In this document: positions 612-62,675 of the stretch, in pieces | How the letters are laid out: every line of letters begins with the position of its first letter | Numbering within the stretch: position 1 is the stretch's first letter | Source: Protonemura montana | Taxonomy: Eukaryota; Arthropoda; Insecta; Plecoptera; Nemouridae | DNA length: 64,000 nucleotides | Assembly: GCA_947568835.1 (NCBI GenBank) | Contig: OX387603.1 | Location: 2,767,701 to 2,831,700 of the forward strand | Direction of reading: 5' to 3' | Made by a program: the position numbers and the translations under genes | Notes under the pieces: generated by a model | What the model was told of the DNA's origin: nothing | What the model saw: only the letters and a program-made list of their open reading frames with translations | Databases searched by the model: none

Positions 612-1040
612 ACCGTAGCCTACTCCTGTCGAAGAGCACCAAGGGGACCACCGGCTTAACGTCACTTCTGAAGTATGGTACAACGCGAACAACAGGATTC
701 CTCCACAAATCCATGCTGTCGAGAGGTTGATAAGCAAGACGAGTGAAGTTGCTGTACTAACTTTCATCCCTACAACCTCTCTCCCGAACAGAACTGGTCA
801 TGTGTATGATGGTCACCCATCCAATACCTGACCCAGCGTAGTGTTGTTTAACTTTCATCCCTCCAACCTCCCTCCCGAACAGAACTGGTCATGTGTATGA
901 TGGTCACCCATTCAATACCTGACTCAGCGCAGTGTTGCTTAACTTTCATCCCTCCGACCTCTCTCCCGAACAGAACTGGTCATGTGTATGATGGTCACCC
1001 ATCCAATACCTGACTCAGCGCTGTGTTACTTAACTTCACG
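612..1040 (-). repeat. 5S-headed SINE, 3'-truncated, head triplicated
   Basis: On the minus strand this reads 5S-like head, then linker, then the SINE body with the CCTTGGTGCTCTTCGACAGG segment. The body starts abruptly at about 612, so the 3' end is missing. The head unit of about 91 bp is present three times in tandem (783-1030). Each unit holds a TTAAGCAACAC-type A box and a GGATGGGTGACC-type C box on the minus strand. Confidence 0.75.
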
Positions 1041-1671: not shown

Positions 1672-2080
1672 TTGATTTATTTGTTTGTGGTGTTTAACGA
1701 CGCACTGTTTTGACATCTAGCCGAGGCACTGGTGTAATGGCGTCGGTGAATGAGTGGATGATGATGAACCTAACCTAGTCTAGAAGGGAGGAGGGGAAAC
1801 CCAGTGCCGGCACGTAGCCTACTCCAGTCCAAGACCAAGGGGACCACCGGCTTAACGTCCCTTCCGAAGGACGGTACAACTCGAACAACAGGATTCCTCC
1901 ACAAATCCATGCTGTCGAGAGGTTGATAAGCAAGGCGAGTGAAGTTGCTGTACTAACTTTCATCCCTCCAACCTCTCTCCCGAACAGAACTGGTCATGTG
2001 TATGATAGTCACCCATCCAATACCTGACCCAGCGCAGTGTTGCTTAACTTCGGTGATCCAACACGCCAAACCGTTCAGTT
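1672..2080 (-). repeat. Near full-length 5S-headed SINE with target-site duplication
   Basis: This is a single-head copy running from a TTTG-rich 3' tail beside GGTGTTTAACGACGCAC (plus strand, about 1688) to the 5' end beside CACGCCAAACCGTTC (about 2076). The flanking 11-mer CGTAATTTTGA occurs at 1661-1671 and again at 2081-2091, which I read as the target-site duplication. Minus-strand order is 5S-derived head, linker, conserved body, TGA-rich segment and simple tail. It appears to have landed in an older dispersed repeat (sequence near 2130-2200 resembles 13.2-13.3 kb). Confidence 0.82.
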
Positions 2081-4757: not shown

Positions 4758-5291
4758 GATTTGTGGTGTTTAGCGACGCACTTTTTTGACATCTAGCCAT
4801 GCGGCACTGGTCTAATGGCGTCGGTGAATGAGTGGATGATGATGAGGATGATGATGAACCTAACCTAGTCTAGAAGGGAGGAGGGGAAACCTGGTGCCGG
4901 CACGTAGCCTACTTCTGTCGAAGAACACCAAGGGGACCACCGGCTAAACGTCCCTTCCGAAGGACGGTACAACTCGAACAGCAGGATTCCTCCACAAATC
5001 CATGCTGTCGAGAGGTTGATAAGCAAGGCGAGTGAAGTTGCCGTACAAACTTGCATCTCGCCAACCTCTTTCCCGAACAGAACTGGTCATGTGTATGATG
5101 TTTACCCATCCAATACCTGATCCAGCGCAGTGTTGCTCAACTTTCATCCCTCCAACCTCTCTCCCAAACAGAACTGGTCATGTGTATGATGTTTACCCAT
5201 CCAATACCTGATCCAGCGCAGTGTTGCTCAACTTTAATCCCTCCAACCTCTCTCCCGAACAGAACTGGTCATGTGTATGATAGTCACCCAA
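4758..5291 (-). repeat. 5S-headed SINE with triplicated head, 5'-truncated
   Basis: The 3' end (minus strand) is at GTGGTGTTTAGCGACGCAC next to an (ATTA)n tail. The body (4860-5050) is intact, followed by three head units of 91 bp (5060-5291). The array stops inside the C-box region at 5291, so the outermost 5S sequence is missing. I found no target-site duplication. Confidence 0.78.
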
Positions 5292-7877: not shown

Positions 7878-8640
7878 CCATCCTCCCGAACCAACCTCTC
7901 TCCCGAACAGAACTGGTCATGTGTATGATGGTCACCCATTCAATACCTGACCCAGCGCAGTGTTGCTTAACTTTCATCGCTCCAGCCTCTCTCCCGAACA
8001 GAACTGGTCATGTGTATGACGGTCACCCATCCAATACCTGACCCAGCGCAGTGTTGCTGAACTTTCATCCCTCCAACCTCTCTTCCGAACAGAACTGGTC
8101 ATGTGTATGATGGTCACCCATCCAATACCTGACTCAGCGCAGTGTTGCTTAACTTTCATCCCTCCAACCTCTCTTCCGAACAGAACTGGTCATGTGTATG
8201 ATGGTCACCCATCCAATACCTGACCCAGCGCAGTGTTGCTTAACTTTCATCCCTCCAACCTCTCTTCCGAACAGAACTGGTCATGTGTATGATGGTCACC
8301 CATTCAATACCTGACATAGCACAGTGTTGCTTAACTTTCATCCCTCCAACCTCTCTCCCGAACAGAACTGGTCATGTGTATGATGGTCACCCATTCAATA
8401 CCTGACACAGCGCAGTGTTGCTTAACTTTCATCCCTCCAACCTCTCTCCCGAACAGAACTGGTCATGTGTATGATGGTCACCCATTCAATACCTGACACA
8501 GCGCAGTGTTGCTTAACTTTCATCCCTCCAACCTCTCTCCCGAACAGAACTGGTCATGTGTATTGTGATCACCCATCCAATACCTGACCAAGCGAAGTGT
8601 TGTTTAATTCGGTGATATCACGAGAATCGATGTTTCCAAC
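7878..8640 (-). repeat. 91-bp tandem array of 5S-SINE heads (8 copies)
   Basis: Eight copies of the 91-bp head unit lie at exact 91-bp spacing; the ACCCAGCGCA-type landmark falls at 7950, 8041, 8132 and 8223, then 8314, 8405, 8496 and 8587 in diverged form. On the minus strand each unit carries TTAAGCAACAC, GTCAGGTATTGGATGGGTGACC-type and GACCAGTTCTGTTCGG segments. The array ends in the outermost 5S-like sequence at about 8600-8655. The SINE body is absent, so this is a head-only array. Confidence 0.88.
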
Positions 8641-8655
8641 TCACCTAACCGTTCG

Positions 8656-9518
8656 ATCCCAACGAGGTTTTAGATCCTCTAAGAATCCATAGATTTTAGA
8701 CTCGAAAACCTTCTTCCGCGGATCCGCACCCGGGAAAAACATTAAACGGAGAATAAAGTGCACTTTTCAGAAACATTTCAACATTAGTTGCGAGGTGCAA
8801 TAGCTATTCCTTTTTCAAACTTACTTTTTAAGGGTATGATTGCATAATTTAGAATTCTTCAGTTTAAAAAATCGTGGTGAGGGTGATGTTGCCAAGGGGT
8901 GGAAGTAGGGGCAAGAATTGTGAACGCATTATGCCATACCACATTTTTCTCATCAAATCTTCCTGCTTTATCTCCTGCTATCCTGGATGTCCCAGTTAAC
9001 AGAGTCGATAAATCGTTAACTTCCCCGCTATAGCTACGAACAATAAAAACCGCGCAAAACAAAAACGACGTGCATGACAGTAAATAATACAGCGGCAAAT
9101 CATGAGCTCCTAACCACCGCTGTAATAAACTCCAGCGACAACCAACCACCGCGCATTCGCAAAGTTTAAATTACCAACAGGTGTGTTCGGGCTCGTTCGA
9201 CTGCGAAACTGCATTTCACTCAACCACTGATGGTCTCGTTTCCAAACTGACGTAATTCCAGTGAAATATGCAAGCCTTAGGGTTGATGCACTTTGTGTAT
9301 AGGAACACCTGTATGCGGTGAAATGGGGTGCTCGTGTATATGGGGCTGCATGATGCTTCGATGTTTAATTCAGGCAAATGGCTAATGGCGAAGCGTGGTC
9401 GAAAGTTCGGTTGCACCACAACGTTGATGTTGGATTGTGTACAGTCTGGTTTCTAGCCATGCTGATTGTTTTATCTGGAGTAGAAGCCAAGAAAAATGGG
9501 GGGTGCGTTACGTTCACT
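8656..9518. other. Gene-free stretch
   Basis: No gene or repeat is recognised between the SINE-head array and the 41-bp minisatellite. Confidence 0.4.
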
Positions 9519-10384
9519 CATCTCAAATAACCTGGATAGAGCATAGGATCCAGCCAGCTGATCTCAAATAACCTGGATAGAGCATAGGATCCAGCCAGCT
9601 GATCTCAAATAACCTGGATAGAGCATAGGATCCAGCCAGCTGATCTCAAATAACCTGGATAGAGCATAGGATCCAGCCAGCTGATCTCAAATAACATGGA
9701 TAGACCATAGGATCCAGCCAGCTGATCTCAAATAACCTGGATAGAGCATAAGATCCAGCCAGCTGATCTCAAATAACCTGGATAGAGCATAGGATCCAGC
9801 CAGCTGATCTCAAATAACCTGGATAGAGCATAGTATCCAGCCAGCTGATCTCAAATAACTTGGATAGAGCATAGGATCCAGCCAGCTGATCTCAAATAAC
9901 ATGGATAGAGCATAGGATCCAGCCAGCTGATCTCAAATAACCCGGATAAAGCATAGGATCCAGCCAGCTGTTCTCAAATAACCTGGATAGAGCATAGGAT
10001 CCAGCCAGCTGATCTCAAATAACTTGGATAGAGCATAGGATCCAGCCAGCTGATCTCAAATAACATGGATAGAGCATAGGATCCAGCCAGCTGATCTCAA
10101 ATAACCCGGATAAAGCATAGGATCCAGCCAGCTGATCTCAAATAACCTGGATAGAGCATAGGATCCAGCCAGCTGATCTCAAATAGCCTGGATAGAGCAT
10201 AGGATCCAGTCAGCTAATCTCAAATAACCTGGATAGAGCATAGGATCCAGTCAGCTGATCTCAAAAAACCTGGATGAGCATAGGATCCAGCCAGCTGATC
10301 TCAAATAACCTGATAGAGCATAGGATCCAGCCAGCTGATCTCAATTAACCTGGATAGAGGATAGGATCCAGCTAGCTGATATAA
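9519..10384 (+). repeat. 41-bp minisatellite, locus 1 (about 21 copies)
   Basis: The unit holds ATCTCAAATAACCTGG and AGCATAGGATCCAGCCAG with a strict 41-bp period and very low divergence. A second-order variant block (ACATGG / CCCGGATAAAG units near 9895-9960 and again near 10065-10120) shows that two- to three-unit segments were duplicated together. The same unit appears inverted at 31.7 and 43.2 kb. Confidence 0.95.
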
Positions 10385-17216: not shown

Positions 17217-17792
17217 TTTGAAACTCAATCACTCGAACGCTGTGTACCATGGCGATAAGGTAAACTTGGAAAACGTAATTCAAACAAATTTCTACCACTA
17301 TTGCTATCACGCTACAATGGAATTTGTTTTCAGCAACAAACAAATTATTGGTTTGCAGCAACAAGAACCAAAACTTGCTTCAAATGTCCATAGAAACTAA
17401 TTCCGTGACACGGCTTGAGTCAGAATGACAGCAAACCACTCTTAAAACAGTCGGCCCGTTGCAAGCCAGCAGATCCTCCGACTGAATTGAGTTACAAGAA
17501 CGTCGTACAAGAGCATAGCGACAATCCGAGGACACCGAAATAAAGACCAGCGCTGAATAGGCCACGCGTATTACCTTCAGGTACCCCAATATTTCCCAGG
17601 TAGTCCAATTCTAGGCGTTCTTCACAGAATGGCACCAAACAAGAAGCGAAGTTTTTCACAAGCACGCTGGTAATGAAACACACGGACAACTCACTACGTT
17701 ATCAAAAGTAATTGCTTATTTTCTAGTACAGTAAAACTGGTGGTACGTGAGTCAAAAGTGGGCTAACTCTGCCCCAAGGGCATTTCGTTTCC

Positions 17793-18767
17793 ATGAGCTA
17801 TGGCAATGTTTATAAACGAATGTGTAGCTTCTTTAAGATAAAACTCAAAAAAATTACAGAAAAAAACTTCTGTCAACAGCATAAACAAGAGAAGAATCCA
17901 ATGGAGCTGCAAGATCGTATACTGGCACAACTGCTGTGCCCCGTATGCTTAGAACACTGCTCGCCTCCAATCGTCCAGTGCTTCAAAGGCCACATCATCT
18001 GCTCCGTCTGTCGTCCACATATGTCACGATGCCCCGTTTGTAAATGCAAGATCTCGAACGTCCGCAACCTGGTAGCCGAGCAATTGTCAGCGCAGGTACT
18101 GTACCCATGCAAGAACAGCGGGGACGGCTGCAAAGGGATGGTCTTGCAAAGCGCGATGGATCAACACGTTCAAGTGTGTACGTTCACGGCTCGCTGCCAG
18201 ATCAAGATGCAATCGAAGACGAATCCTGACTGGTTCGTCCCTTGCTCGTGGTACGGAACGAGCACAGAACTGCGGGAACACGTGAAGAAGAGCCACGAGA
18301 AATTCAATTTCAAAATCGGACCGAAAGTGGTTCACGCGTATCCTCTGACACGGAAAGTCAGCGCTAAACTGATCTTGTTTCATCATCGGTTGTTCTGGTC
18401 GATCTTGAATTACGATTTTAAAGAGAGGACGATGAAAGGTCTGGTTTACTGCCTGGCACCGAAAGAAGTCGCTGCACTTTATGAGTTCGAGTATTCGGTG
18501 ACGTGCCAGGAGCAGCCGAGTCTAAGTCGTGGTCACGTCTTGAGCACGATGGAACTGCCAATGAATCTGAAGGACTACGCAGCTCTGCACGGCGTTGTGG
18601 TCTTCCAGGGGCAAGAGACTTTGAGGAAAGTAATTTCAAAAGGAGTTATCACTTGCTGGCTAACTCTCAGTCTGAAAAATTCAAATACTTCTTGCCAGTT
18701 GGCGAAGACTGTCGAACTTTTTCCGACGAGTCAGGAGGATGTACTTCCAAAAATGTTCTGTCCCTAA
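17793..18767 (+). CDS. SINA/SIAH-family RING E3 ubiquitin ligase, intronless
   Basis: A single open frame of 324 codons encodes a seven-in-absentia-type protein. The C3HC4 RING is complete: C49, C52, C63, H67, C70, C73, C80 and C83, starting CPVCLEHCSPPIVQC. It is followed by both SIAH-type zinc fingers (C106, C113, H125, C129; then C135, C151, H163, H168). The remaining ~150 residues occupy the substrate-binding-domain position but are highly diverged from animal SIAH1/2. The family catalyses ubiquitin transfer with an E2 partner and marks substrates for proteasomal degradation. Human SIAH proteins are about 280-325 residues, so length fits. Translation could begin at 17793 or at the internal Met of MELQDRI (17901, 288 residues), which matches the usual family start better. 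No canonical AATAAA follows; a run of ten A lies about 50 nt after the stop. Intronless form plus the A run raises the possibility of an old retrocopy. Confidence 0.85.
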   Translation: MSYGNVYKRMCSFFKIKLKKITEKNFCQQHKQEKNPMELQDRILAQLLCPVCLEHCSPPIVQCFKGHIICSVCRPHMSRCPVCKCKISNVRNLVAEQLSAQVLYPCKNSGDGCKGMVLQSAMDQHVQVCTFTARCQIKMQSKTNPDWFVPCSWYGTSTELREHVKKSHEKFNFKIGPKVVHAYPLTRKVSAKLILFHHRLFWSILNYDFKERTMKGLVYCLAPKEVAALYEFEYSVTCQEQPSLSRGHVLSTMELPMNLKDYAALHGVVVFQGQETLRKVISKGVITCWLTLSLKNSNTSCQLAKTVELFPTSQEDVLPKMFCP

Positions 18768-19204: not shown

Positions 19205-19515
19205 GTTTTAGTGAGATCACCGAAGTTAATCAACACTGCACTGGGTCAGGTGTTTATATGGGTGACCGTCATACACATGACCCTCTTAGGGAGAGAGGTT
19301 GGAGGATGAAAGTTAATAAAACTTCATTCGCCTTGCTTATCAACCTCTCGACAGCATGGATTTGTAGAGAGATTTGTGTTTGGGTTGTAATGTCCATTGG
19401 AAGGCAATCTTTAAAGGCCCCATCGGTACTCTTCGACTAGAGTAGGCTACGTGCCGGCACCAGGTTTTTCATTCCCATTTAAAGCTTTGCTAGGTTCATC
19501 ATCATCCTCATCATC
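19205..19515 (+). repeat. 5S-headed SINE, plus strand, diverged
   Basis: The plus-strand order is GATCACCGAAGTTAATCAAC (5S-like), ATGGGTGACC, AGAGAGGTTGGAGG, CTTATCAACCTCTCGACAGC (body), AGTAGGCTACGTGCCGGCAC and then a TCATCATCATCC segment. It contains one head unit only. It is more diverged than the minus-strand copies, with a damaged body at 19360-19430. Confidence 0.78.
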
Positions 19516-21200: not shown

Positions 21201-22098
21201 CACTGGCTTGGAAACCAGCCCACGGTATGCGCTATCCACGCAAGTGTGTACATACCAGTGAGGTACACAGGTAGAATAGGGGAGATCGAAGACCCCACTG
21301 GCTTGGAAACCAGCCCACGGTATGCGCTATCCACGCAAGTGTGTACATACCAGTGAGTTACACAGGTAGAATAGGGGAGATCGAAGACCCCACTGGCTTG
21401 GAAACCAGTCCACAGGATGCGCTATCCACGCAAGGGTGTACAGACCAGTGGGTTACACAGGTAGAATAGGGGAGATCGAAGACCCCACTGGCTTGGAAAC
21501 CAGTCCACGGGATGCGCTATCCACGCAAGGGTGTACAGACCAGTGGGTTACACAGGTAGAATAGGGGAGATCGAAGACCCCACTGGCTTGGAAACCAGTC
21601 CACGGGATGCGCTATCCACGCAAGTGTGTACAGACCAGTGGGTTACATAGGTAGAATAGGGGAGATCGAAGACCCCACTGGCTTGGAAACCAGACCACGG
21701 GATGCGCTATCCACACAAGTGTGTACAGACCAGTGGGTTACACAGGTAGAATAGGGGAGATCGAAGACCCCACTGGCTTGGAAACCAGACCACGGGATGC
21801 GCTATCCACACAAGTGTGTACAGACCAGTGGGTTACACAGGTAGAATAGGGAAGATCGAAGACCCCACTGACTTGGAAACCAGATCACGGGATGCGCTAT
21901 CCACGCAAGTGTGTACAGACCAGTGGGTTACACAGGTAGAATAGGGGAGATCGAAGGCCCCACTGGCTTGGAAACCAGACCACGGGATGCGCTATCCACA
22001 CAAGTGTGTACAGACCAGTGGGTTACACAGGTAGAATAGGGGAGATCGAAGGCCCCACTGGCTTGGAAACCAGTCCACGGGATGCGCTATCCACGGAA
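21201..22098 (+). repeat. 95-bp tandem array (about 9.4 copies, no indels)
   Basis: Unit starts (CACTGGCTTGGAAACCAG) fall at 21201, 21296, 21391, 21486, 21581, 21676, 21771, 21866, 21961 and 22056, an exact 95-bp spacing. Each unit can form two short hairpins: ACTGG/CCAGT around an 8-nt loop, and GTGTA/TACAC. The period is not a multiple of three, so it is not a coding repeat. The family is unknown. Confidence 0.95.
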
Positions 22099-23194
22099 GC
22101 ACACGAATCGGGGATCTTCGGGGGAAAAAAGAATAAATTAAAATAGTCTAAAGTTTCGCCGGCGAGGAAAATTTATGCGCGAAATATTATTGCCGCCATC
22201 GAATCGTTAATTTCCTGACTTCATTCCGACAAGTCTTTTTCAATTTTTCCGTTAATTTTCACCGAAACTTTAATAATTTCGAAGGGAAAAAAAAACACGA
22301 GAACCGAGACGAGTTTCGAAAAAGTTTTTTTTTTTTCAATCTTTTCGCTTTATTTTTCTTTTAATTGGCGCCGCGAAGCACAGATGTCATTTGCGTGGAA
22401 TTAAAATTTACGTCGCTTTTCGCTCCCGTTTTTTTTTTGTTTTTGTATCACATAATCTTAAACCGAGGAGCTTCGCTAGTTCGCAATGTGTACCGACGCC
22501 GACTGGGACAAGATTATTACGACGCACCAGTCCATCAAAATGTCATCAACTTAGGTTTAAATGCACAATAACTTGTTTGCTCCTTCAGTCAATTTGCCTA
22601 ACAAATAGGCAAACGGAAATGCGCAAACTGAACGCAGAAAAATTCAAATCAATTCTGCGGTTCCGTGCCAGTGCAATCCGTGGGCTCAGCATAAAACAGC
22701 CGATAAGCTCATCTTTCAGCACGAAAGAAAAATTCGAATCCCAAAGTTAAGTTCTCCTAACCTTGAGCCACAAAATGTCCCCCCAAATATCATCCATCTT
22801 GAACACCCCTGACAAGGTTTCTCCAGACAAGCTTTGGACGGCCAGGTCGTAGTACCTCTTTACCCCGCAATACACCGCTTCCATCCACCGACTAACTTTA
22901 AACAAATACACACGAGCACATTTCTCTCAAACCAAATTACCTTGCACTGTACCAACGAATGTCTTTTGTTATTCTTTAATTTTGCTCCATGTTAATTATA
23001 TGAGCCCGAGAGAGAGAGAGAGGGGAGAGGGGGGGAGAGAGAAGCAGACGCAATGTTCCCTTTATTCTGTGAAATTGAAAGATTAGCAGAACATAGCAGA
23101 AACCGTGCCCTGATGCTCTGATGTTTGCACCGTTGACACACAGTTCGCTCGGTGGAAGAGTGGCGGTCTTTGACTGCTACGGGAGGTAGCTAGG
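22099..23194. other. Gene-free AT-rich stretch with (GA)n
   Basis: No gene is recognised. A GA-rich microsatellite lies at 23008-23043. Confidence 0.5.
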
Positions 23195-23455: not shown

Positions 23456-26400
23456 AGTATAGGTTTCGTTAGAACCACCAATATCATTTCCGTTTCCATT
23501 TCAGTTTAAAGTTCAGATTTTTTATTTTTCTAAACGAGCTACTGCAGTCTTTAGGATTCTCTGAAATTAATTTTCCTTTACACATGACTAGAGCTGGACT
23601 GTCATTGGCTGCTACTAGTCACGTGACGTCGGGTAGCCAATAGTGATCGAGTGGTGAAGGCCATTTAGACCAAGGATGCAAAGAAAGTTGGGAAATCTTT
23701 CTTCTTTGTGTAAAAATTGCACAGCCTACAGTTTTTATGTTCGAAATCAATTTCACAATAACCTAATAATAATAAAAGTGCGTGATTTTCTAAATGATTT
23801 TACTTTTGGCAGCCTTTGAAATGCTTTACAGCCGGAAAAACAACAGTGGCCGAAAGATACCGAGAGTTCTGCGTTTGTGTTCGACTACAAATGACTTTTG
23901 CCAAGAAACTTGAAGGTGTCTAAAACAACGACATAGACAGACACAGCTGTCCACTCAGCAACAGAGTGCCAATCAACAGGTCAGGGGTTCGAATCTTCTC
24001 GTGACTGCGTTGGGGCTATTTCCAGAAGTAACGGTCTTGCCGTTCTCCTAAAACTCGTTTGAGTGGTCCGGCACCCAAGCTAGGTTGGGGAAAAATTGGT
24101 AAGATTCTCAAAAAGGGACCCAAGCAGTGAACGATGTTAAGTCACAGTGTTTTTCGAAGACGGAACCAACAATTTTAAGCAAAATAGTCTTTGGGAATCG
24201 CTTTGTTCACCATGGCAATCATTGCCCTAAACAAAGACAGTCGGGAATTTGCAAATCGCGTTGGTTAAAGTTAAAAAGCTAGTACGATTGAATTCTGAAA
24301 TATGATTGATTACTGCCAAACTGCGCTGAGACGTTAGATATCCTAAAGAGTGTGTAGCCCCCGGGTTAGGCAACACACTCCTGCGTTGTAGTCAAAGTGA
24401 CGTGGTGACCAGCTCTTGGTGAGGTTTATCCCGTCCACAGAAGGTCCAAGTTCACCCTCGTCTCCCTTCTCGCCCAGGGCTACTCTCACAGACCACCTTG
24501 TCTAATTAGTTAGGGAAATGTAGCGACAGTGGGTACCCGTAGGTGCTATTCTTAAGCTGCACCAACTGTACGCCACGTTGCCACCCCGGCATTTTGTTTG
24601 CATTGTAGAAAAACCGCCCTGCAGATTTATATATTCATAACTAACTTATGCCCGAAGTTAGATTGCTTTTAAAAGTTAAACAATTGCCTTTCTTTCTCTA
24701 GCTAGTTGTACGCCGTGCTTTTGTGGAAATCTTTGCAACTCTCTGCAGGTAATTTTCAGCGTACACCGACTGAGCCATTCAACTCCAGGAAAAGCCGCGG
24801 AGGTATTTCATGCACATTTCCACCGCGGTGCGGATTCTCTTCTAGTTTTTTTTTTGCATGGGTGATTTTCCTCGAGGCTGATTATGTGAGGCATTGTAAA
24901 TTGTAACAGAAAAGTTCAATGTTTAGCGCAATTTTTCATGATTTTTTGTATTTTTAACGGTAATAACACGGTCTTAATGCTCACAATGCATCATTAAATA
25001 CTTAGATGATATTGGTTGGCACAAAAAGATCTTTAAATCCATTTTCGATCAAACTCTGTGACTTCAAATGTACACAACTTGGATTAGCTTTGCCATTATC
25101 TATAGCTGAAAAAAATTTCTTACACGATGGATCTTAAAATTAATGGTTTCTGATGGTGTTATGCATTAATTATGATCCAGGTATAGGCATCAAAACGGGA
25201 AGTGTTCATCAGATGAATAATTAAAACAATGAGAAATAAAGGTGATGCTGCCAGTAAACGTGTATGTACGCATATATAGCCGGGAAGGAAATGACTGGTG
25301 GCTGGGTAGATGGGTGGGTGGCCATGCAGGGGGCTGGGGGCCATCTTTAATGCAGGCTAATGCTTTCGCCTGCTGGCATCGGATCCGCGGGAAATTCGGC
25401 CGGACTTTGCTCCATGGAAAATGAATGAGTGTTCATAATGAGCCGGAAGGAGTCGGAAAATTCAGCTTTTCACGGTGGAAAAGTGATCCCATATGACGCG
25501 CGCGTGTTTCTGTGCTGGTGTTTTGTAGGGAAACTTTGTGAATATACTACACGTTGAATACGGATGAACAAAAAAATATTTTTTTTCATAACTGGTACTA
25601 TTTGCTTTTTTCCCTATATCAGATTCTTGACCATGCTATCATTTTCTTAGTCTAGGGCAGTTTATGTAGTTTTTTTTTTAAAGACGTTAAGTTACGTTTT
25701 GATAGGTAAGTGCTGTGGGTCTCCAATGAGATGGTCACCCATCCAAAACGTAAATCAGCATGAGGCTGCTTAACCTCGCGACGAAAATCAGTGGAAAAAA
25801 GCGCGAAATCGTTCGGTATTCGCCGAAACGTTGATGCCATTTCAAGTTGCATAAGTTGTACACTAATCTGAGAGGACTCGATTCGAAGTTCGCTTTTTCT
25901 TATAGAAATAACTCTATCAGTTAGTTTCAATTCAGAAACGCAATACACTTTGAAGTACACCTGGAGGGCACAAATAAGTCACAACAGCTCTTAGCAAAAC
26001 AACGAAGAGCGAATAATTATTCAGTCTCAAGCCACCAACAAGTTGGGCAAATATCGTCTTAGCAAACCGAAACTATGAAGCTGTTTAAAATCACTCCAAA
26101 TACAAGATCTTATCTCAAGTAACTTCACCACTTCAGTCTCACCGAATTAACATAATGGATATCAAACTTTCCGAGCGTTTTTAACATTTCTTGGCATGAC
26201 TCTTAAACTTGCTTGTTTTCAAACCGCTTTTCTCAAATATGATTGGCCACTCTTTTTACGAAGTGTGTATTGAAATGGCAAACATTAAAACAGAAAGGCA
26301 CCGTGAAATTTCAGTCTATCGCAATCAAATTTTTTATTTTAGCTGCCTGGAAAAAGCAGGAAAGTACTCCAGGAGTTGACAAACCCTTCGTGTATTTTCA

Positions 26401-29400
26401 ACAAAATCCAGAATTAAGAATTCAGATTTCGTGACGAGCAAGTATCAGATGCGTTGCACAAAACTCGGGACATTTGCAATAATTTGTCTCAAGCTTTACA
26501 ACTTTCCAGACGTCGTCAACAACTTTTTGCTTGCTCACTTGCGTTGCTAAATGGCAATATACATTTCACAAAACTTATTCCAGTTACATTAAGTTTGGGA
26601 AAACTAGAAAATATGTTTATTTTATGCTCGAACGATTTACAGCGAATTAAAGCTATGTATAGCGAAATTTGTTTGGCACACAATCTAGTTTTTGCAGAAG
26701 TTCGCGCTATGCAAATCCCGGGACACGTGTCCACAATTTTATGCAGAACACCTTCAGTCCAGACTTTGTTTCCAGAATTTTAAGACCGAAACGTCTGCAG
26801 AAGTAACTGGTAGCGGTATTTCCAATTAAAATCAACTGCGGTCAGCTGGCCTTGACCTTCAGTCGTGACCTTCAATGTGTGACCTTGAAGCTAATACATT
26901 TTTTATCAAATTTATCTGTCAATAGATTATGTCATTTACTTGCAACTAGAAATTAAGTAAGCTCGCTGCAAAAAAATTGCCAGAATCATTTACTCCAACC
27001 ACACCATTTGGTAGCGGTTGTCAGAGCTGCCGTCAGTTCCAAAAATATGTGCGTTATTTCAGTAGCTCCGAGAAATATTGTAGTATTCCCTAAAACTCCG
27101 TATGTACTCTTGGTTCGCTTTTTAAAAGTAATATCTGTATTTTCACATCGTTTACTACCCAATGTCCACGTTATCCCTCGTGCTCTGTGGCGCTAACAAA
27201 GCCATACCAGTGGTCATTCGTCCGGCGGTCCATACAAGGGGCATACGTTTGCCAAACATTACAGAAGAATGACAAAAAATGGTTCGCGAACATGAGACCA
27301 CGAAAAAATTAAAAACTGAAAAACGAGCCACAACTTCAATGGACGATTTTTAATTAATATGGAAAAAAAATTAATATCTTCTAAATTACAAATTATTTTT
27401 ATATGTAGACGATCAATGCGTTTTTTGCTTCTTTCATATTGCCAAGTTTTTTGTAATAATTATCCCCCGGGGCAGGCCTATACAAGACCGCGACTGAAGT
27501 AAGGGTAATACCAATCCGGACCCCGTAATGCAGAGGAGCAAAGCGCGCGGTAACCCATCCAATACTTGACACACGCATACTGTTGCTTAACCTCGTTTTC
27601 TGTGGATATCTTCCTTACTATTCAGTGCAAATATATTTCATTCTCACAGATTTATACAATTATGTACCTTTTCGCTTTAACTTTTCAATTCACATCCCCT
27701 CCTTCACCCATTTCCTAAAACTTTTGATATTATTCATCTTATTTTCATTCATATTTGAGAATGTTACGTTCAACTGTACACAACAAATCTATTCAGTCTC
27801 AAAGATAAGTTTTCAAATGAAATACAATCGGTGAACGGTTTTTTGAAAAGCACATACAAATTACACTCTTGTATTCTTTGTCCATGACCATGCAAAACGC
27901 AAACTAACTCTTGCACCAAACTAACTTCTGCACCAAACTAACTTCTGCACCAAACTAACTCACTCAAGACTGATAAATTGTTGTTTAGATGTCGGCTATT
28001 AAAGTACATATCAAGCACACAGACACGCAGGTTGGGCACTGATTAAATTTTGATAAAAACATCATATAAAACATATCAAAAATCAGGCCACGTAGAGGAG
28101 CGAACATAAAAATGAGGTGAACCAACCGAGCTGGAATGAATATACGCGGGCAATGCGCTAAGTAAACGTGGAACAGGCTGAATATTTCAGGTCAATCCGG
28201 CTAAAAGCAAAAAATCAGAATTCAGGGCGAAAATCTGTTATAAATTCAGTGCCCATACTTGCCGCAAGTTCCCGAGTTTACAGCGGATTAGATTCGGTCG
28301 GGTACTACCGCTCCCTGCCTCGGTAGTTCGCTTGATTTGAAAAGCAAGGTGGGTCGCGGTGTTCCCATTCGAATGGGGCAAAAATATCGGTGCTAATATC
28401 ACAGAAATCCGTGGACAGAGTTCGCTAGCATCGCGATAAATAGGTGCCTGGCGATTTTCGGCAGCATGAGTGAGATGGACTAAATTACTATCAACGCCAT
28501 CTCTCGGACGAGTTCCAAAATATGTACGCGGTTGTCGAAGGAAGCATCGAAACTTGCGGTGCTTTCAGTCATATAACAATGTCTAGTTAAGAAGATCGAC
28601 TGCCACTTACATATCATCGTGGTAACTGCCAATCACAGAAATATAATTTATATCAATTTCAGGTTATTTTTAAACCTTTACGCTCCTTACGTATTTAACG
28701 TTCAATATACGTTCCTCGCATTTAACCATCAACAATTAAGCTATAATCTCGACCAAACCCCCAACCCCCAGCCACTGGGTGGTCATCTGCAACGAGGATG
28801 CTCGCCGCTAGAGAGGGAAGGTCAACATTTGTTGTGCCCTCCACTAGCCATGTCCGCTCTGAGTGACGCGAAACACTCGACGCACCCTCGGTCGGCGTCG
28901 TCCGAGGCCGGCCATGACGGCAATCGCGAGCTATCGACGTCCGAAACAAGTGCCCCAACATAGCTTCCCGGCGCTAGCCTCGAGCAAACCCCAGCGATTT
29001 CTTACTGAAAACCCCTTATCTTTGACTATCTCTTATCAAGAAATACACCGTAGAGTCACCCGCATTAGTAACTCCTCGAATGGAATGCAAACAACACCCA
29101 TCAGTGCATCCCCTTGCCCTTTCAGTACCAGTTTTTAAGGTGACTAACATTTAAGGGCCACAGGATTTCGGGTGGCCTAATTCCATTTGCAATACGCGTT
29201 GAACACCTTTGCCCCAAAGCCTCTCATTGATTGGCTGAAATGTTCGGTAGCCATGGAGAAACCACCTGCCCAAGCCTCGTAGTTCAGCTATCATAATTAT
29301 GTTCCCGCAGATACATATAAAGAATATTTCTAAATTAGCAGTATTTTTAAAAGATGGCAAGCGACTGAAAACAAACAGACACACAGAGAAACCTGGAAAA

Positions 29401-31431: not shown

Positions 31432-31712
31432 TATCTCAAATTATCTGCATAGCAATTGCCAAGGAGAGACTTTTGAAGCCATGACCGCCATCTTGAGAGT
31501 CCCTAATTTTGAGTTCTCTCAACGAACCCGTGATATTTTAAGTGTTTTTATCGGTGCTTTTTATGGTTTTCGTAGTTTTGACTGCTTTCATGATCAAAAT
31601 TGGTTCGCAACGTGTTTTAAAACTAACAATTTTAATTTTAATTTTAGGGACACCTCGGATTTGGAGACTCCTTCCTGTTGCAAACAATGGATTACCTGAC
31701 TTCAATTTTGAT
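31432..31712 (+). repeat. Dispersed repeat, copy 2, leading into 41-bp array
   Basis: This is collinear with 23195-23455. It ends in CTGACTTCAATTTTGATCAG and passes straight into the 41-bp array, so the array looks as if it grew at the edge of this element. Confidence 0.6.
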
Positions 31713-32449
31713 CAGCTGGTTGGATTCTATGCTCTATCCAGGTTAGTTGAGATCAGCTGGCTGGATCCTATGCTCTATCCAGGTTATTTGAGATCAGCTG
31801 GCTGGATCCTATGCTCTATCCAGGTTATTTGAGATCAGCTGGCTGGATCCTATGCTCTATCCAGGTTATTTGAGATCAGCTATCTGGATCCTATGCTCTA
31901 TCCAGGTTATTTGAGATCAGCTGGCTGGATCCTATGCTCTATCCAGGTTATTTGAGATCAGCTGGTTGGATTCTATGCTCCCAGGTTATTTGAGATCAGC
32001 TGGCTGGATCCTATGCTCTATCCAAGTTATTTGAGATCAGTTGGCTGGATCCTATGCTTTATCCAGGTTATTTGAGATCAGCTGGCTGGATCCTATGTTC
32101 TATCCAGGTTATTTGTGATCAGCTGGCTGGATCCTATGTTCTATCCAGGTTATTTGAGATCAGCTGGCTGGATCCTATGCTCTATCCAAGTTATTTGAGA
32201 TCAGTTGGCTGGATCCCATGCTCTATCCAGTTTATTTGAGATCAGCTGGCTGGATCCTATGCTCTATCCAGGTTATTTGAGATCAGCTTGCTTGACCCTA
32301 TGCTCTATCCAGGTTATTTGAGATCAGCTGGCTGGATCCTATGCTCTATCCAGGTTATTTGAGACCAGCTGGCTGGATCCTATGCTCTATCCAGGTTATT
32401 TGAGATCAGCTGGCTGGATCCTATGCTCTATCCAGGTTATTTGAGATCA
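31713..32449 (-). repeat. 41-bp minisatellite, locus 2 (about 18 copies, inverted)
   Basis: This is the same 41-bp unit as at 9.5 kb but in opposite orientation (plus strand reads GGATCCTATGCTCTATCC, AGGTTATTTGAGATCAGC). A short unit lacking TCTAT (about 31975) and several point variants mark individual copies. The apparent peptide repeats come only from a 41-nt period cycling through all frames. Confidence 0.95.
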
Positions 32450-34545
32450 GTGACGTGTACAGAAGACAGAGAGTGCAAAAATAAGGTGCAAGATGTGGAT
32501 GCATTCAGGCTCCTTAGAGTAAGTAAGGGACAACTCATCAGATAGCACCAGTAAGCACACAATCTTGGCAACTTCTCTCTATGTAGATACAGTACTTGTT
32601 GTATCGCAAATAGAGATGGATGAATTAAGCTAATTATTCGGTGATTCCCGAGCAAGGGAGATAGCATCTGCGCAAGCAATCGCCTTAAGTAATTGATTTT
32701 CGAAATCCAAACGTTTGGCATATAATTCTGAGATGACCAAAGGATTTGCTAATTGCGAGTAATGCATTGAGATTGGCAATCTTGCCAGCGTGGTTTCTTG
32801 CAACTTCATTACCTAGCTTCCTGGGGTCCTGGGTCCTGGGGTCCTGGGTCCTGGGGTCCTGGGGTCTTGGGTCCTGGATGTACATTTACTCTGGCAGTGT
32901 TTCTGGGATCTACAGGACGCTTTTGGGGTATTTTTCAAAAAAATTTTTTTTTTTAACGGGCATTTCTTTTAATGTATGCAGATAATTTGAATGTTTTTTT
33001 AGCCGGCACGAGTGTTGGTCACCATCCTATTAATTTATTAATGATAATAACTAGAATTGAACAGAGACAACGAATTCGTAGCTAAATGACCAGCTGTATT
33101 ATGTACGCGATACGGTACAATTATTTTAATTTAGAGTTTATTGCATAAAATGATACGCGTGGATTCGTTTTTGACAGCGGATTCTAGCCGATGTCGAAGT
33201 GATCGGCGATTTTAAATGACTTTTAAACTTTTTTCTTTATTTATTATTATTAACAACGCTATAAGTTTGTTAAAACATTGTTTGGCAGCTGCAAGAAACG
33301 TCCCAGTGTTACATCGCGGCCTTGAACCGCGTCTAGCGATAACCTTTATGTTGACATTTAGCAAACCTAATTCGACTTAACATTGGGGACGCAGACCCTT
33401 GAGCGGTCACACTTTTGGAAGGTAAAGATCTCGTCCACATTTTTTAAAAAACAAAAGTACATACGGAAATGCAAATGGTCGTATATATATTTTTAGGGTA
33501 AGGTTTGGCCAAATAAAATTGTAGCGTGTGGACATGTTGGCCCTTTTTTTTAACTCGCCTCGTCCCATTTTTTTGAAAAATATCGAAATGCTTAAAATTT
33601 CCAATACTAAATACCGATTACTTTTCTTAAGATTGGAATAATTGGCAATGGTTTGAATCTCTGACTGTGTGGACCTTTGGTGCGTACATAAGGACTGGAG
33701 TTTCCTTAACTTGCACCTCGCCAAACCATGCAGTGAATTCCCAGTGAATATTTATCCAGCAATATAAATACATGTACTACCTATAAATTTATAAAAGTAT
33801 GTACCGACTGTACTGTATAATGTGAAGATAAAATGACTTCAATTATAATATAATCCTTTGTTTTAAGTAAATCTTGTAAAAATATTTATCCCTTTATATG
33901 ACCGCGTCTATACAAATGAGCTGCCGAGCATCGGAGCTTGCAGAAAAATCTACAGAACCCGAAGCGGCAAAAGGAGTCTGGAGAGAAAAAAATAAAAACA
34001 AGGAATACAATAGCGCGTGTACACCGAGCTATGAGCCAGATCTGCGATCATTTTAATTGCATTAAGTCTTTAGAGACGCAATTAATGCGACTGGCAATAC
34101 ATCCATCAAACTTACATCAAAGCGAAGCGAAACGAACGAAACCTTCCTCGGGGGGGCCTTTTGGGAAATTACTCCGCTGAACAATGATAAATGTATTGCT
34201 GTGATTTAATTAACGAGAAACTTTTAAAACTCCATTTATTTGAGAGTGTTACCCCTTTTTTTTCTGTGCAGGTATTTTCGACTCGGTATCGCGTTGAGGC
34301 GAAATAATCGACTTTCTCCCGAAATTAGCAATCGAGTGGCTACGAAATGCTTTTCACAAGGCGCTGCTCTGGTAAATATTAATTAAATAGACAGTGAAAT
34401 ATGTTTGACGGCGTTCAATCACTGACAATCTTCAGGATTCTCTCATCAAGTGCGCGTTGTTATTTCAAATTACATCGTCTTTTCTGCCTCACAACTGGTG
34501 GAAACCGTTGAAGAAAACGACAGTTGCGACTTGCTCGATTCTTAA
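32450..34545. other. Gene-free AT-rich stretch
   Basis: No gene is recognised. A short GGGTCCTGG-type repeat lies at 32820-32876. Confidence 0.5.
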
Positions 34546-34999
34546 CCGAAACAAAAGTTGAGTGTATAGGTTCTAGGTAGAGAAACAACGTCAATATTAC
34601 AGTCTCTGCGTGAAAGATGGCCGCCAAATGACTGCCTTACCGACAATAATGCAGAGTACCGGAACATCACGTCAAGTGGAGCCACTGTCGTATGAAATTT
34701 AATTTCGATATTTCTCGTAGGTTAACTCGCTTTTTAATATCGTTACGTGTTTATCAATCGTTGAGGTTAACATTGATGGAGATTTTTTGAGCATGAAAAG
34801 TCTCAAAAGCGAGTTAACCTACGAGAAATATTGAAATTAAAATTCATACGACAGTGGCTCCACTTAACGTGATGTTCCGGTACTCTGCATTTTTGTCGGT
34901 AAGGTGGTCATTTGGCGGCCATCTTTCACGCAGAGACTGTAACATTGACGTTGAAACTCTACCTAGAACCTGCACACTCAACGCCGAAACAAAAGTTGA
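34546..34999. mobile_element. Palindromic (foldback/MITE-like) element with ~180-bp inverted arms
   Basis: The left arm (about 34557-34735) and right arm (about 34800-34983) are near-identical reverse complements. Shared landmarks are GAGTGT, GGTTCTAGGTAGAG, ACAGTCTCTGCGTGAAAGAT, TACCGGAACATCACGT, GGAGCCACTGTCGTATGAA and GTAGGTTAACTCGCTTTT. The spacer is about 60 bp. The direct repeat CCGAAACAAAAGTTGA flanks it (34546-34561 and 34984-34999) and looks like a target-site duplication, although the left one overlaps the arm start by 5 bp. It has no coding capacity. This fits a non-autonomous DNA transposon or foldback element of unknown superfamily. Confidence 0.88.
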
Positions 35000-37900
35000 A
35001 ATACCCAATTTTCATTGTCTTTTCTGACGAGAATGAATGAAAATTGACTGCGTACAAACTAGGATTTTGTTAACTCATACATTAGTCTGCAACGAATTGA
35101 AATCTCGACCTCTCAAAGTCCTAATCAAGAACTTGTACAAGTAGTGAATTCACCTCAGAATAGCGGGGCTCTGTACGCATCATACAGCAATTAATTTGCT
35201 CAGTACATAGGGCACTTTGAGTACCTAATTATCCAATACGTTACAGACAGCAGACGATCGCAGCCAGAGACCCCTTGAGTGAAACATGCCGGACTAGTTA
35301 AAACCAAAGCCTACTTGATCAAGTTGAATTTCCCTCGCTTAAATAATATCGTAGACTAAATAATATCGAGCCTTGAACTTAATTATTTGATTTGTCGCTT
35401 CGGCAGCACCGTCGGGTATTCGGCACTAAACCGTGTGCTTTTTTAATCAACACGCCCGGTCGTTCCGAGTCACGCTCCTTGATGGCCCAGTTTCAGAAAC
35501 GCATGCATATGTGTATCTTTAGAAATATCACGATAAATTAGAATTAGCGGATTGAATAACCGATTTCCAAGGATGTTTTTGTTCATTAAAAATCCGCCGA
35601 GTCTGTGCATGATCGTAAAATCAAACTACTTGGCAATGTAACAACAAAATCAAAATGCAATGTGCATGCAGTCGGGAGTTTTGCGATTGTGCCTCAAACG
35701 AGCGGAAGACGGAAAAGGGAAATATCAGAGGGTCACATTGTTCGATTATACGAGCGAGCATTTGCATTTTTCCAGGTAAAATCTGGAATAAAAGTTGATT
35801 GTGATAACTGGGAGCGCGGTGCGGCGAGGCGCGGTAGCTGGAGCTCGCCGACGAGCACACTAACGACGAGGTATACGGAGCGCAAACAGCCCGTGGCAAG
35901 CATGGGACATGAACCAAAAGTTACCGAGGAAATAAAGGGAAAAAACCCATCGCCTGAGCAGCCAGGCATAAAATCGGATGGAACTGAGGGTAAGAATCAA
36001 AAAACATAAAAACCACAATAAAATTATGATGCCAATTATATAGCTAATAGTCAGGATATGAAATGACAATGTTATTTTTCCAGGCGTCTTGCGGTTTCTA
36101 TATCTGTGGTGTTTTTGTACTCTGCTTATAGTGACAACGATGATAAAGGAGGCTTCGGCATGCTTTTCCGCGCCGATCCATTCAATGAAAAGCATATCTG
36201 GCCGTGCTAATCTTCAGAACAAACGAGTTAAGCCAAGATGGCCGGTCAGACGCAATTTGAGCCACGTGTTCTCGTTGAAGATTGTATCTTGTCCTTGCCT
36301 CGTGAATGTACCTACCTCATACCTATATTAGGCAGAATGATCAAAGGGGGCTTGCATTTGGACTCTATAGAGAACTGAAATCTTAGAGATTAGAAACCCC
36401 GGGGACGCTATTCGAGATTCAGACGAACGGTAATATCAATGGAAACATCGTCAGCATCGTCCTTATTTTGTCGAATCGAGAAAACAGCAAAAAAACAGGT
36501 CGATAGTTTGGAGCTATGAGCACTCGGTATATTGGACGATAAAACATGTTCTCGGCGCAAAGTGTGCCAATAAGAACTGGTGGTACCAAGAAGCCCGTTC
36601 GGTGGTCACCCACCCGTTGCCGATTCAGCGCTGTGTTGCTCAACTTCGGAGACCATCAGCGCAAATCTTCCGTCTCCTGAGCGCAAAATGCGTGCGGTGG
36701 TCATCGCGCGTCTGAATTAGCACTCGCAGTGCGTCGTTCAGTAAAAGAATGTTCAACCTTTGGTTATACAAGACACAGAAAACTGGCAGGGTTCAAAATT
36801 CCCCATTAAATTTTCAAAACTCTTCCCGATTGACTTGCAAATTTTCGCGCAAAACCCGACTAGGAGGTCCCCACTCCCCTTCTGCCACCCTCGTAAGATG
36901 AACGAGCACCCCTTCGTTGTCCACCCCCTTCCCTAAAACCGCGCAAAACCCTAGGACATGTATTTACTTGCGAGGATGGCGGACATAGGGGCATGTTTTC
37001 AAGCCAATGGGAAATAGCCCGTCAATGTCTGTAATACGGCTACAGTTTAAAACAAAATGGCCGCTCAGATCGGCTACCCGCGGTGATTTATAGAGATCGG
37101 TAGCTAACCACTAGACCCGTTAATTAATTCTCTTTGCGTTGTCAGCGCGCGCCCGTGAAGGCCTTCGCCAAAACGTCTAAATTAATTACAAAATTATGAT
37201 ACGCGCGGCAGCAATTTCAGATTGCACGGCGGGTCGGGGCGTTGCTCGCGTGTATCGCCTTGTTAAAGACTATATGGTCACTGAAGCCGGCCATCTTTAC
37301 TTGGGCACCCCTTTCGGTGGACGACACTAGCGGCCGGGCGGTAGGAGGTGGCAAACCCCTCGGGATATGCCATGGCGACAATGACATGGAATTTTTGATC
37401 GGTGCTAATATCAGCTATGCGCTTGTCCCTCCATCCCACTCTTCCTGCATTTGTTTTGCTGCATTTGTTTTGCTGCATTGTCCCCAATTAAGAAGTGAAC
37501 TCGTCCAGTTTGCAGTTTTCAGGGATGAAATAAAGCTGGGACTTGATGACTTGGCAATTTTTTTGGTAGAAATTACTTTTCGGGAGCAGAGAGAAACACG
37601 TGATGTCTCCTTGGTTTGGCCGCGCGATGCCATAAGCCACCTTTAAATTATAGACGACACTAAATCCATGGCAAGTTAATCCTATGACGGGAGTCGAAAT
37701 GGATTCATAAAATGGAAATGAGTCCATCTAATCTCCCCCCCCCCCCACCCCCACCCTCCCCGCCATCTGCCCATATCCCCGTCGCCGATTCAACTCTGCC
37801 GCGTGCCACCCCACATTTTAATTCTGGAAAACCGGAAGCAATCAGCCAGAACGGAAGTTGAACCTGACGAACGTTTCATTAGCGCCCGGCGACGGCGACG

Positions 37901-38468
37901 ACTACGGCGTTGTCTCAATTAGTGTTGCTCCTAAATGGACAGGAAATTGCGAGAATGAACTCGACCTATACCTTGCCTGCTCGGACCTATTTGCTCGGGG
38001 CCATCGCTTTACGGCCCGGTTGAGCTATGCCCTGCCCGGCCTGTTGGGAAGCAGCAGAGTTAAGCAACACTGCACTTGTCAGGTATCGGTTGGGTGACCG
38101 AACGTTATGAGGCAGACCTTGCGATGCTTGCGACTAGAACCGTACTAACCCCACGAGACGTGGTTTAAGTCATAGGGGTACCATATAGGGGGACAGAGTC
38201 GACTGCAAGACTTTTAAAACCCAAGAATCCACGTACTTTTTTTATTGAAGTACATGGTTCAGGAAGCTAAACGGTTTAGGTCGGGACCGTGTGTGTGGGA
38301 CCCGCAACATATCACAAGTGTAATTGAGATAAATTGTTAACTTGCGAGGTCAAGCCATCAAAAAAGTATTGCTGTGACTCAGCGTCGACGAACTTGGTTA
38401 GTTCAATTGATGTGATCTTCATCTCCGAGCAGAAGGAATCGCTGGAGACCTGGACCTTGCCATGGTTG

Positions 38469-55327: not shown

Positions 55328-55915
55328 ACAGGAGCAGCCAACACAGTGTGTTAAAGAGACAAGGCTAAGCGGTGGCCGGTCCTTGGTGCTGTTGGACAGG
55401 AGCAGCCAACACAGTGTGTCAAAGTGACAAGGCTAAGCGGTTGCCGGTCCTTGGTGCTGTTGGACAGGAGCAGCCAACACAGTGTGTTAAAGGGACAAGG
55501 CTAAGCGGTGGCCGGTCCTTGGTGCTGTTGGACAGGAGCAGCCAACACAGTGTGTCAAAGTGACAAGGCTAAGCGGTGGCCGGCCCTTGGTGCTGTTGGA
55601 CAGGAGCAGCCAACACAGTGTGTTAAAGGGACAAGGCTAAGTGGTGGCCGGTCCTTGGTGCTGTTGGACAGGAGCAGCCAACACAGTGTGTCAAAGGGAC
55701 AAGGCTAAGCGGTGGCCGGTCCTTGGTGCTGTTGGACAGGAGCAGCCAACACAGTGTGTCAAAGTGACAAGGCTAAGCGGTGACCGGCCCTTGGTGCTGT
55801 TGGACAGGAGCAGCCAACACAGTGTGTCAAAGTGACAAGGCTAAGCGGTGACCGGCCCTTGGTGCTGTTGGACAGGAGCAGGCTACATGCCGACACCGGG
55901 TTTACTCTCGGCTTC
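55328..55915 (+). repeat. 68-bp tandem array derived from the 5S-SINE body
   Basis: Unit starts (GTGCTGTTGGACAGGAGCAG) lie at 55386, 55454, 55522, 55590, 55658, 55726, 55794 and 55862, an exact 68-bp spacing. The array exits into GGCTACATGCCGACACCGGG, the next part of the SINE body in plus orientation. The unit itself holds the body segment AAGCGGTGGCCGGTCCTTGG. The array is therefore an internal expansion of a SINE. Confidence 0.92.
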
Positions 55916-62123: not shown

Positions 62124-62662
62124 TTATTTTATTATTATTATTAGTGGTGTTTAACGACGCACTGATTTGACAACTGGCCCTGCGGCACTAGTCTAATTGC
62201 GTCGGTGAATGAGTGGATGATGATGAGGATGATGATGAACCTAACCTAGCCTAGAAGGGAGGAGGGAAAACCCGGTGCCGGCACGTAGCCTACTCCTGTC
62301 AAAAAGCACCAAGGGGACCACCGGCTTCACGTCCCTTCCGAAGGACGGTACGACGCGAATAACAGGATTCCTCCACAAATCCATGCTGTCGAGAGGTTGA
62401 TAAGCAAGGCGAATGAAGTTGCTGTACTAACTTTCATCCCTCCAACCTCTCTCCCGAACAGAACTGGTCTTGTGTATGATGGTCATCCATGCAATACCTG
62501 ACCCAGCGCAGTGTTGCTTAACTTTCATCCCTCCAACCTCTCTACCGAACAGGACTGGTCATGTGTATAATGGTCACCCATTCAATACCTGACTCAGCGC
62601 AGTGTTGCTTAACTTCGGTGATTTAACGAGAACCGGTGTTTCCAACACACCAAACCGTTCGG
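62124..62662 (-). repeat. Full-length 5S-headed SINE with 13-bp target-site duplication
   Basis: This is the best-preserved copy. TATTTCTTTATTA occurs at 62111-62123 and 62663-62675, flanking the element exactly. On the minus strand it runs from CCGAACGGTTTGGTGTGTTG, through a 5S-like head (CACCGAAGTTAAGCAACACT, GGATGGGTGACC-like), a second partial head, and the body to a TCATCATCATCC segment and a (TAA)n tail. The 5S match covers about the first 115 bp, extending past the A box into the sequence equivalent to the 5' half of 5S rRNA. The head-proximal unit is duplicated once. Confidence 0.92.
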
Positions 62663-62675
62663 TATTTCTTTATTA

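Follow-up and report, generated by a model that had tools for sequence, protein, structure and literature searches.

The tandem arrays of a 91-bp unit in the genome of Protonemura montana are probably minisatellites that derive from a SINE, occupy the subtelomeric parts of the chromosomes and were amplified locally. As arrays, these sequences most likely have no function for the cell, and the Pol III promoter boxes contained in their units are most likely passengers. The window, i.e. the whole stretch of 64,000 nucleotides that was analysed, lies in contig C2 of an assembly comprising 258 Mb in 34 contigs.

By means of a 20-base probe (ACAGAACTGGTCATGTGTAT, at most three mismatches), the unit was marked 29 times at seven loci of the whole window, which agrees with the seven loci and about 30 units counted in the initial annotation; in dinucleotide shuffles, the same probe yielded 0.01 matches on average. 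The tandem amplification of the unit is likewise borne out by six TRF arrays, namely the one at 7891-8607 and further ones at 758-1036, 5048-5281, 43938-44219, 49080-49905, and 62428-62615. All seven arrays of the window share one orientation. The copies of the element and its relatives are:

614-1036, minus strand: three units and body, no head (TRF, BLAST).
1684-2079, minus strand: single-unit SINE with partly deleted 5S head, one unit, body and tail; 11-bp target-site duplication.
4760-5290, minus strand: approximately 2.6 units, body and tail; the 5' end lies inside a unit (TRF, BLAST).
7891-8607, minus strand: array of 7.9 units of 91 bp (TRF); the RNA reads right to left.
8610-8655, minus strand: diverged 5S head (85% to the head consensus) that belongs to the array at 7891-8607 and lies on its 5' side.
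19223-19467, plus strand: diverged single-unit copy consisting of unit (85%) and body (79%) (BLAST).
43938-44219, minus strand: approximately 3.2 units, no head and no body (TRF, BLAST).
48939-49953, minus strand: nine-unit SINE with a complete 5S head and a body; the tail is missing (TRF, Rfam, BLAST).
55328-55881, plus strand: array of 8.1 copies with a 68-bp unit that resembles positions 97-166 of the body (76-84%).
62141-62663, minus strand: complete SINE with head, two units, body and tail; 13-bp target-site duplication.

Judged by its resemblance to the body, the 68-bp array is apparently a second array that was built from another part of such an element.

Mapping of heads, units, bodies and tails at each locus yielded a common layout on the RNA strand: a 5S head, a variable number n of units, a body, and a 3' tail. 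The body contains CCTTCGGAAGGGACGTTAAGCCGGTGGTCCC and carries what we take to be the Nin type of SINE domain; the tail ends near GTGCGTCGTTAAACACCACAAA and a short A+T-rich run. According to BLAST, the SINE body follows the units at five of the seven window loci, and four loci retain at least part of the 5S head; the locus at 7891-8655 consists of head and array without body. Each unit forms an inner section of a longer SINE and comprises part of the 5S head plus the linker. The notion of head-only arrays was discarded for this reason, and the proposed origin from a SINE is corroborated by the head-unit-body-tail anatomy and by the target-site duplications of short copies. End units reach the SINE termini at 48939-49953 (head end) and at 62141-62663 (both ends).

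Target-site duplications were checked at 23 elements or cut elements, many of which are cut or truncated. Duplications longer than 10 bp flank only two of the 23, the single-unit copy at 1684-2079 and the two-unit copy at 62141-62663. Three others have candidates of 8-9 bp, including one of 9 bp at the seven-unit copy of locus L015; the six-unit copy in L014 has a weak 7-bp candidate, and the remaining elements checked have at most 7 bp or none. At 48939-49953 a duplication was searched for and none was found. Single-unit copies also occur in L019, L021, L023, and L033, which are samples chosen by position. With a 5S-derived head that contains promoter blocks and with dispersed copies flanked by target-site duplications, the element is a 5S-headed SINE (SINE3). 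As in a SINE-derived satellite (sSat), the unit of the arrays is a portion of a SINE that occurs elsewhere as an ordinary single-unit SINE.

On its minus strand, the unit corresponds to 5S rRNA from approximately nucleotide 49 to the end, followed by a linker of about 18 nt. The Rfam model RF00001 (gathering score 38) matches the minus strand at 49833-49953 with 63.8 bits and at 62543-62663 with 60.1 bits, in both cases over model positions 1-120, so that the 5S origin proposed for the unit rests on a significant alignment. The matches at 1978-2079 (28.5 bits) and at 8539-8656 next to the 7.9-unit array (24.6 bits) are below the gathering score. Comparison with L001, a 5S gene of this same genome, shows identity at 36 of the 45 positions in the head and at 53 of the 69 in the unit. 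Boxes A, IE, and C match this gene in 13 of 15, 4 of 6, and 15 of 18 positions, respectively, and keep their order and spacing; their limits in the unit are assumed ones. The three promoter-like blocks noticed initially are present in the given order on the minus strand. Among the 25 full-length units of the window, the exact consensus form is found for the A block in 11, for the intermediate block in 23, and for the C block in seven; only three units possess all three blocks in this form. Inspection by eye confirmed that the consensus unit lacks TTTT, and no T run is listed inside 7891-8655. Runs of at least four T on the RNA strand were found 35-104 nt downstream of four of the seven window elements and inside two of them; one element has none within 200 nt.

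Short matches (76-88%) that cover only unit positions 1-47, the part containing the promoter boxes, occur at 184-228, 25730-25774, 27549-27591, 36603-36646, 38058-38099, and 63417-63463; they are probably the heads of other 5S-headed SINE families. 5S genes recur at the start of C11 (C11:1-105743) in a unit near 9.5 kb, with three genes per unit and in both orientations. In L005 (C11:706-3824), one of them adjoins reading frames that resemble histones H2A and H2B (named by eye).

A genome-wide count of tandem units, suggested in the initial annotation as a check, revealed 24,155 unit-to-unit junctions, which at 91 bp each correspond to approximately 2.2 Mb. In addition, 7,248 unit-to-body and 8,002 head-to-unit junctions were found; at most one mismatch was allowed in all cases, and each reversed control gave 0. 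In 106 arrays, the last unit and the start of the body match the consensus exactly. Of these arrays, 100 are listed, in a list that stops in C15 and does not reach C16, and their positions are biased: the distance to a chromosome end is less than 3 Mb for 75 of them, less than 4 Mb for 88, and less than 5 Mb for 98, compared to 27%, 35.5%, and 44% expected for a uniform distribution over the 11 large contigs. Likewise, 37 of the 40 best-scoring arrays are located within 4 Mb of an end. The listed arrays thus exhibit the subtelomeric preference known as a trait of sSats. Their orientation relative to the chromosome end is unbiased (51 of the 100 listed arrays). Of the 44 single-unit copies with no or one mismatch, 28 are within 4 Mb of an end, and their end distances do not differ significantly from those of the arrays (p=0.064). 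Since these near-consensus copies are end-biased too, the bias is in part a property of consensus-like SINEs themselves, which counts against our preferred interpretation.

Contig C1 was used for a comparison of arrays with SINE bodies, based on the exact entries among the first 100 of each junction list, which reach 25-29 Mb. Among the exact matches listed, 22 array loci are located in 0-2.4 Mb and 12 in 2.4-25.1 Mb; the corresponding numbers of body junctions are 19 and 56 (Fisher p=1.2e-4). Beyond 2.4 Mb, 14 of 16 head-body pairs contain approximately one unit, 12 of them at spacings of 93 or 96 bp and two shortened (0.67 and 0.89); the other two pairs contain five and six units. The eight pairs within 2.4 Mb contain 1, 1, 2, 2, 3, 5, 6, and 8 units. 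One further pairing in this region, of 22.4 units, was omitted because it probably represents two elements.

The chromosome ends harbour a belt of minisatellites. At 30 loci chosen by position, to the exclusion of the terminal window, minisatellites (period at least 30, at least 2.5 copies) cover 21,550 of 90,000 bases (24%; 10 of 14 loci) less than 3 Mb from an end and 1,664 of 160,000 bases (1.0%; 1 of 16 loci) further in (p=2.8e-4 between zones). The periods include 30, 31, 41, 47, 52, 58, 68, 72, 78, 84, and 91 bp. As minisatellites of other periods occupy the same belt, no explanation specific to 5S sequences is needed. In the sample sequences examined, isolated relatives were found for the 91-, 52-, 47-, 68-, and 41-bp units and none for the other unit lengths; the broader proposal of a belt arising from mobile elements therefore rests on five unit lengths. 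In a masked self-comparison of nine array loci (matches longer than 80 bp), the shared non-SINE flanks were other repeats, and no common carrier was found.

A 41-bp minisatellite occupies 9520-10380, 31710-32450, and 43154-43667 of the window, the first being inverted relative to the other two, and its unit has a short single-copy relative in L019 (2567-2601). A 47-bp minisatellite lies at 48096-48778, with isolated relatives at 34557-34599 and 34940-34983. For a 95-bp array of 9.5 copies (21201-22099), no single-copy relative was found in the examined sequences. Nearly the entire 5-kb sample L041 (C15:400001-405000) is one 30-bp array of 165 copies. The window further contains, at 17751-18767 on the plus strand, a frame of 338 codons with Sina RING and Sina zinc-finger domains.

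In the mechanism we propose, a 5S-headed SINE consisting of head, linker, conserved body, and 3' tail would insert as a single-unit copy. The segment of 91 bp begins near the middle of the 5S head and ends where the body begins. It is flanked by the short direct repeat AAGTTA; in single-unit copies this repeat is present at both edges, within CCGAAGTTAAGC where the unit starts and within ATGAAAGTTAGT where the body starts. The segment would be duplicated by slippage or by unequal exchange involving both AAGTTA repeats, and later unequal exchange between units would extend and rearrange the array. Most of this growth would occur less than 5 Mb from the chromosome ends, amid minisatellites of many other sequences. 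We infer that slippage or exchange takes place, that AAGTTA has a part in it, and that the end bias is caused by recombination.

The units show a pattern that local amplification would leave. Identical non-consensus units were found in 30 of 675 pairs within arrays and in none of 1,810 pairs between arrays; this comparison is based on 71 units of six arrays of at least three units from the window and from position-chosen loci, and L037 contributes 528 of the 675 pairs. The position-chosen loci L027, L033, and L037 were combined with the window for repeating the unit tests, because L010-L016 had been picked by their likeness to the query. Adjacent units are more alike than expected after shuffling their order, both in the six arrays (p=0.038) and in a set of 13 arrays (p=0.0014) that includes the query-picked loci L010 and L012-L016 and from which L009 and L011 were dropped because they duplicate other loci of the count. 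With the array labels shuffled, the divergence per array is below expectation (p=0.0008, six arrays), and the pooled divergence within arrays is only slightly so (0.0574 versus 0.0621, p=0.021), which speaks less clearly for local growth. In L033, a block of three variant units is repeated, and in L027 variants alternate. L037, with 33 units the longest array, does not rank with the most homogeneous of the 13. In L016 (C2:997011-1000192), the array has at its 5' end a nested repeat of 15 bp made from part of the 91-bp unit, and runs of head junctions spaced by 92 bp occur on C1 near 0.92 and 1.23 Mb; both suggest that arrays were also born with other edges.

A change at position 72 was considered as an array-specific variant and rejected. 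It was found in 15% of 135 units, but in a genome-wide count of exact copies its frequency is 1.4%, irrespective of whether a head (2 of 142) or a unit (28 of 2,057) precedes. The value of 15% is inflated because L010-L016 were picked for likeness to a query that carries the variant.

Local minisatellite growth does not explain four convergent inverted pairs of arrays in the interior of C1, which count against our preferred interpretation. They were deduced from the exact-match junction lists:

C1 8952434-8952525 (plus strand) with 8955807-8956267 (minus strand): inverted pair 1.
C1 20983982-20984619 (plus strand) with 20988065-20989157 (minus strand): inverted pair 2.
C1 22423575-22424121 (plus strand) with 22427464-22428015 (minus strand): inverted pair 3.
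C1 23320507-23320600 (plus strand) with 23323981-23324709 (minus strand): inverted pair 4.

The innermost unit junctions of the pairs near 8.95, 20.99, and 23.32 Mb are 3469, 3446, and 3474 bp apart. For the pair near 22.43 Mb, the closest minus-side mark is that of a body junction at a distance of 3343 bp, and the partner is known only as a six-unit head-body pair. Among the matches listed, the four pairs include seven of the 12 interior array loci of C1 (2.4-25.1 Mb). It is conceivable, albeit tentative, that besides local growth there exists a composite, foldback-like mobile element bounded by two array-bearing 5S SINEs in inverted orientation to each other. Such an element would carry 5S promoter arrays away from the chromosome ends.

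Alternatively, SINE RNAs containing several units might have been retrotransposed: additional copies of the Pol III promoter would raise transcription, and the array-bearing SINE would be the active form that spreads together with its array. The 13-bp duplication flanking the two-unit copy and the 9- and 7-bp candidates flanking the seven- and six-unit copies are equally expected from such a process, which counts against local growth alone. Moreover, several arrays begin inside a unit, as expected of 5'-truncated reverse transcripts. Last units that match the consensus exactly are preceded by a unit in 106 cases, i.e. in arrays, and by a head in six, i.e. in single-unit copies; hence young copies could arrive already with several units. 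However, derived units that are identical recur within arrays but, in the six arrays compared, never between them, the position-72 variant is equally rare after heads and after units, and nearly all of the complete interior pairs on C1 (14 of 16) contain about one unit. We therefore consider a spread of multi-unit copies unlikely and regard local amplification of a SINE segment as the probable origin of the arrays.

The initial annotation had further proposed that the arrays could act as Pol III or TFIIIA binding platforms or sinks. If they were maintained for that purpose, the boxes should be the best-kept part of the unit. Boxes A, IE, and C do keep their order, their spacing, and most of their matches to the 5S gene, and the consensus unit is free of a T4 run. 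In nine arrays with 77 units from the window and from position-chosen loci, however, box positions differ from the consensus more often than the remaining positions (0.048 versus 0.025). The permutation P for the boxes being more conserved is 0.99, and it is still 0.96-0.97 if up to three sites, beginning with the most variable one, are omitted. Furthermore, few units of the window retain all three blocks, and minisatellites of other periods share the same belt. Beyond the sequence likeness, nothing positive speaks for a platform or sink function, which is therefore not supported and appears very improbable. A literature search on a TFIIIA decoy and on the Pol III satellites of Hydromantes and Xenopus yielded nothing further of use. 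An origin of the arrays from 5S rDNA clusters by decay, to which the 5S similarity of the unit might point, can practically be dismissed: the 47 scored 5S genes of this genome reach 108.7-117.5 bits, one 5S gene on C11 adjoins histone-like reading frames, and the units contain a linker and are connected to a SINE body, with target-site duplications on complete copies.

The driver of array growth thus appears to be position rather than promoter function, since the process is tied to a belt at the chromosome ends that contains many unrelated minisatellites. This also cautions against taking 5S-like boxes for binding sites by default, even where a genome contains thousands of them. A single genome displays every stage, from single-unit copies and a two-unit copy with a clean target-site duplication to arrays of three to more than 30 units. 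SINE3 families are not known to carry more than one head; in contrast, internal arrays of n units are common here.

The element resembles 5S-headed SINEs (SINE3) in its 5S-derived head with A, IE, and C blocks and in its dispersed copies with target-site duplications (PMC10886601). Cassandra TRIM arrays also contain a 5S promoter sequence that is tandemly repeated within a retroelement, but Cassandra is a plant LTR element in which the LTR forms the unit and the internal domain the spacer (PMC7215508). Comparable, too, are the Nin-SINE of Lottia and the PcH-sat satellite of Patella: 118 of 179 bp of this mollusc satellite match a SINE, but the type is SINE2/tRNA and the satellite is pericentromeric (PMC11121367). 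Xenopus satellite 1 and Hydromantes Hy/Pol III are likewise listed as satellites derived from SINE-like elements, albeit with a tRNA-related region instead of 5S (PMC9659126).

The arrays were initially called unusual, which holds in part. Among the matches listed from the open-access literature, to which most subscription papers do not belong, no tandem array derived from a 5S-headed SINE was found; however, arrays of a SINE promoter segment have been published for reptiles (PMC10702118). The conversion of such a segment into a minisatellite thus apparently also occurs outside reptiles. The squamate sSats derive from tRNA-headed Squam SINEs, have a unit of 67 nt including box B in snakes, and are present at thousands of loci in most snakes. 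Longer arrays are reported to be more homogeneous in squamates, a trait that is not defining (PMC10702118). The stonefly arrays differ in their 5S-type head and in having all three promoter blocks within the unit. In both systems, the unit consists of the 3' part of a Pol III head plus some of the body, longer end units match the SINE termini, the arrays are subtelomeric, and locus-specific subvariants alternate (PMC10702118). Being alike in structure, location, and alternating variants, the squamate SINE-derived satellites are the nearest published case.
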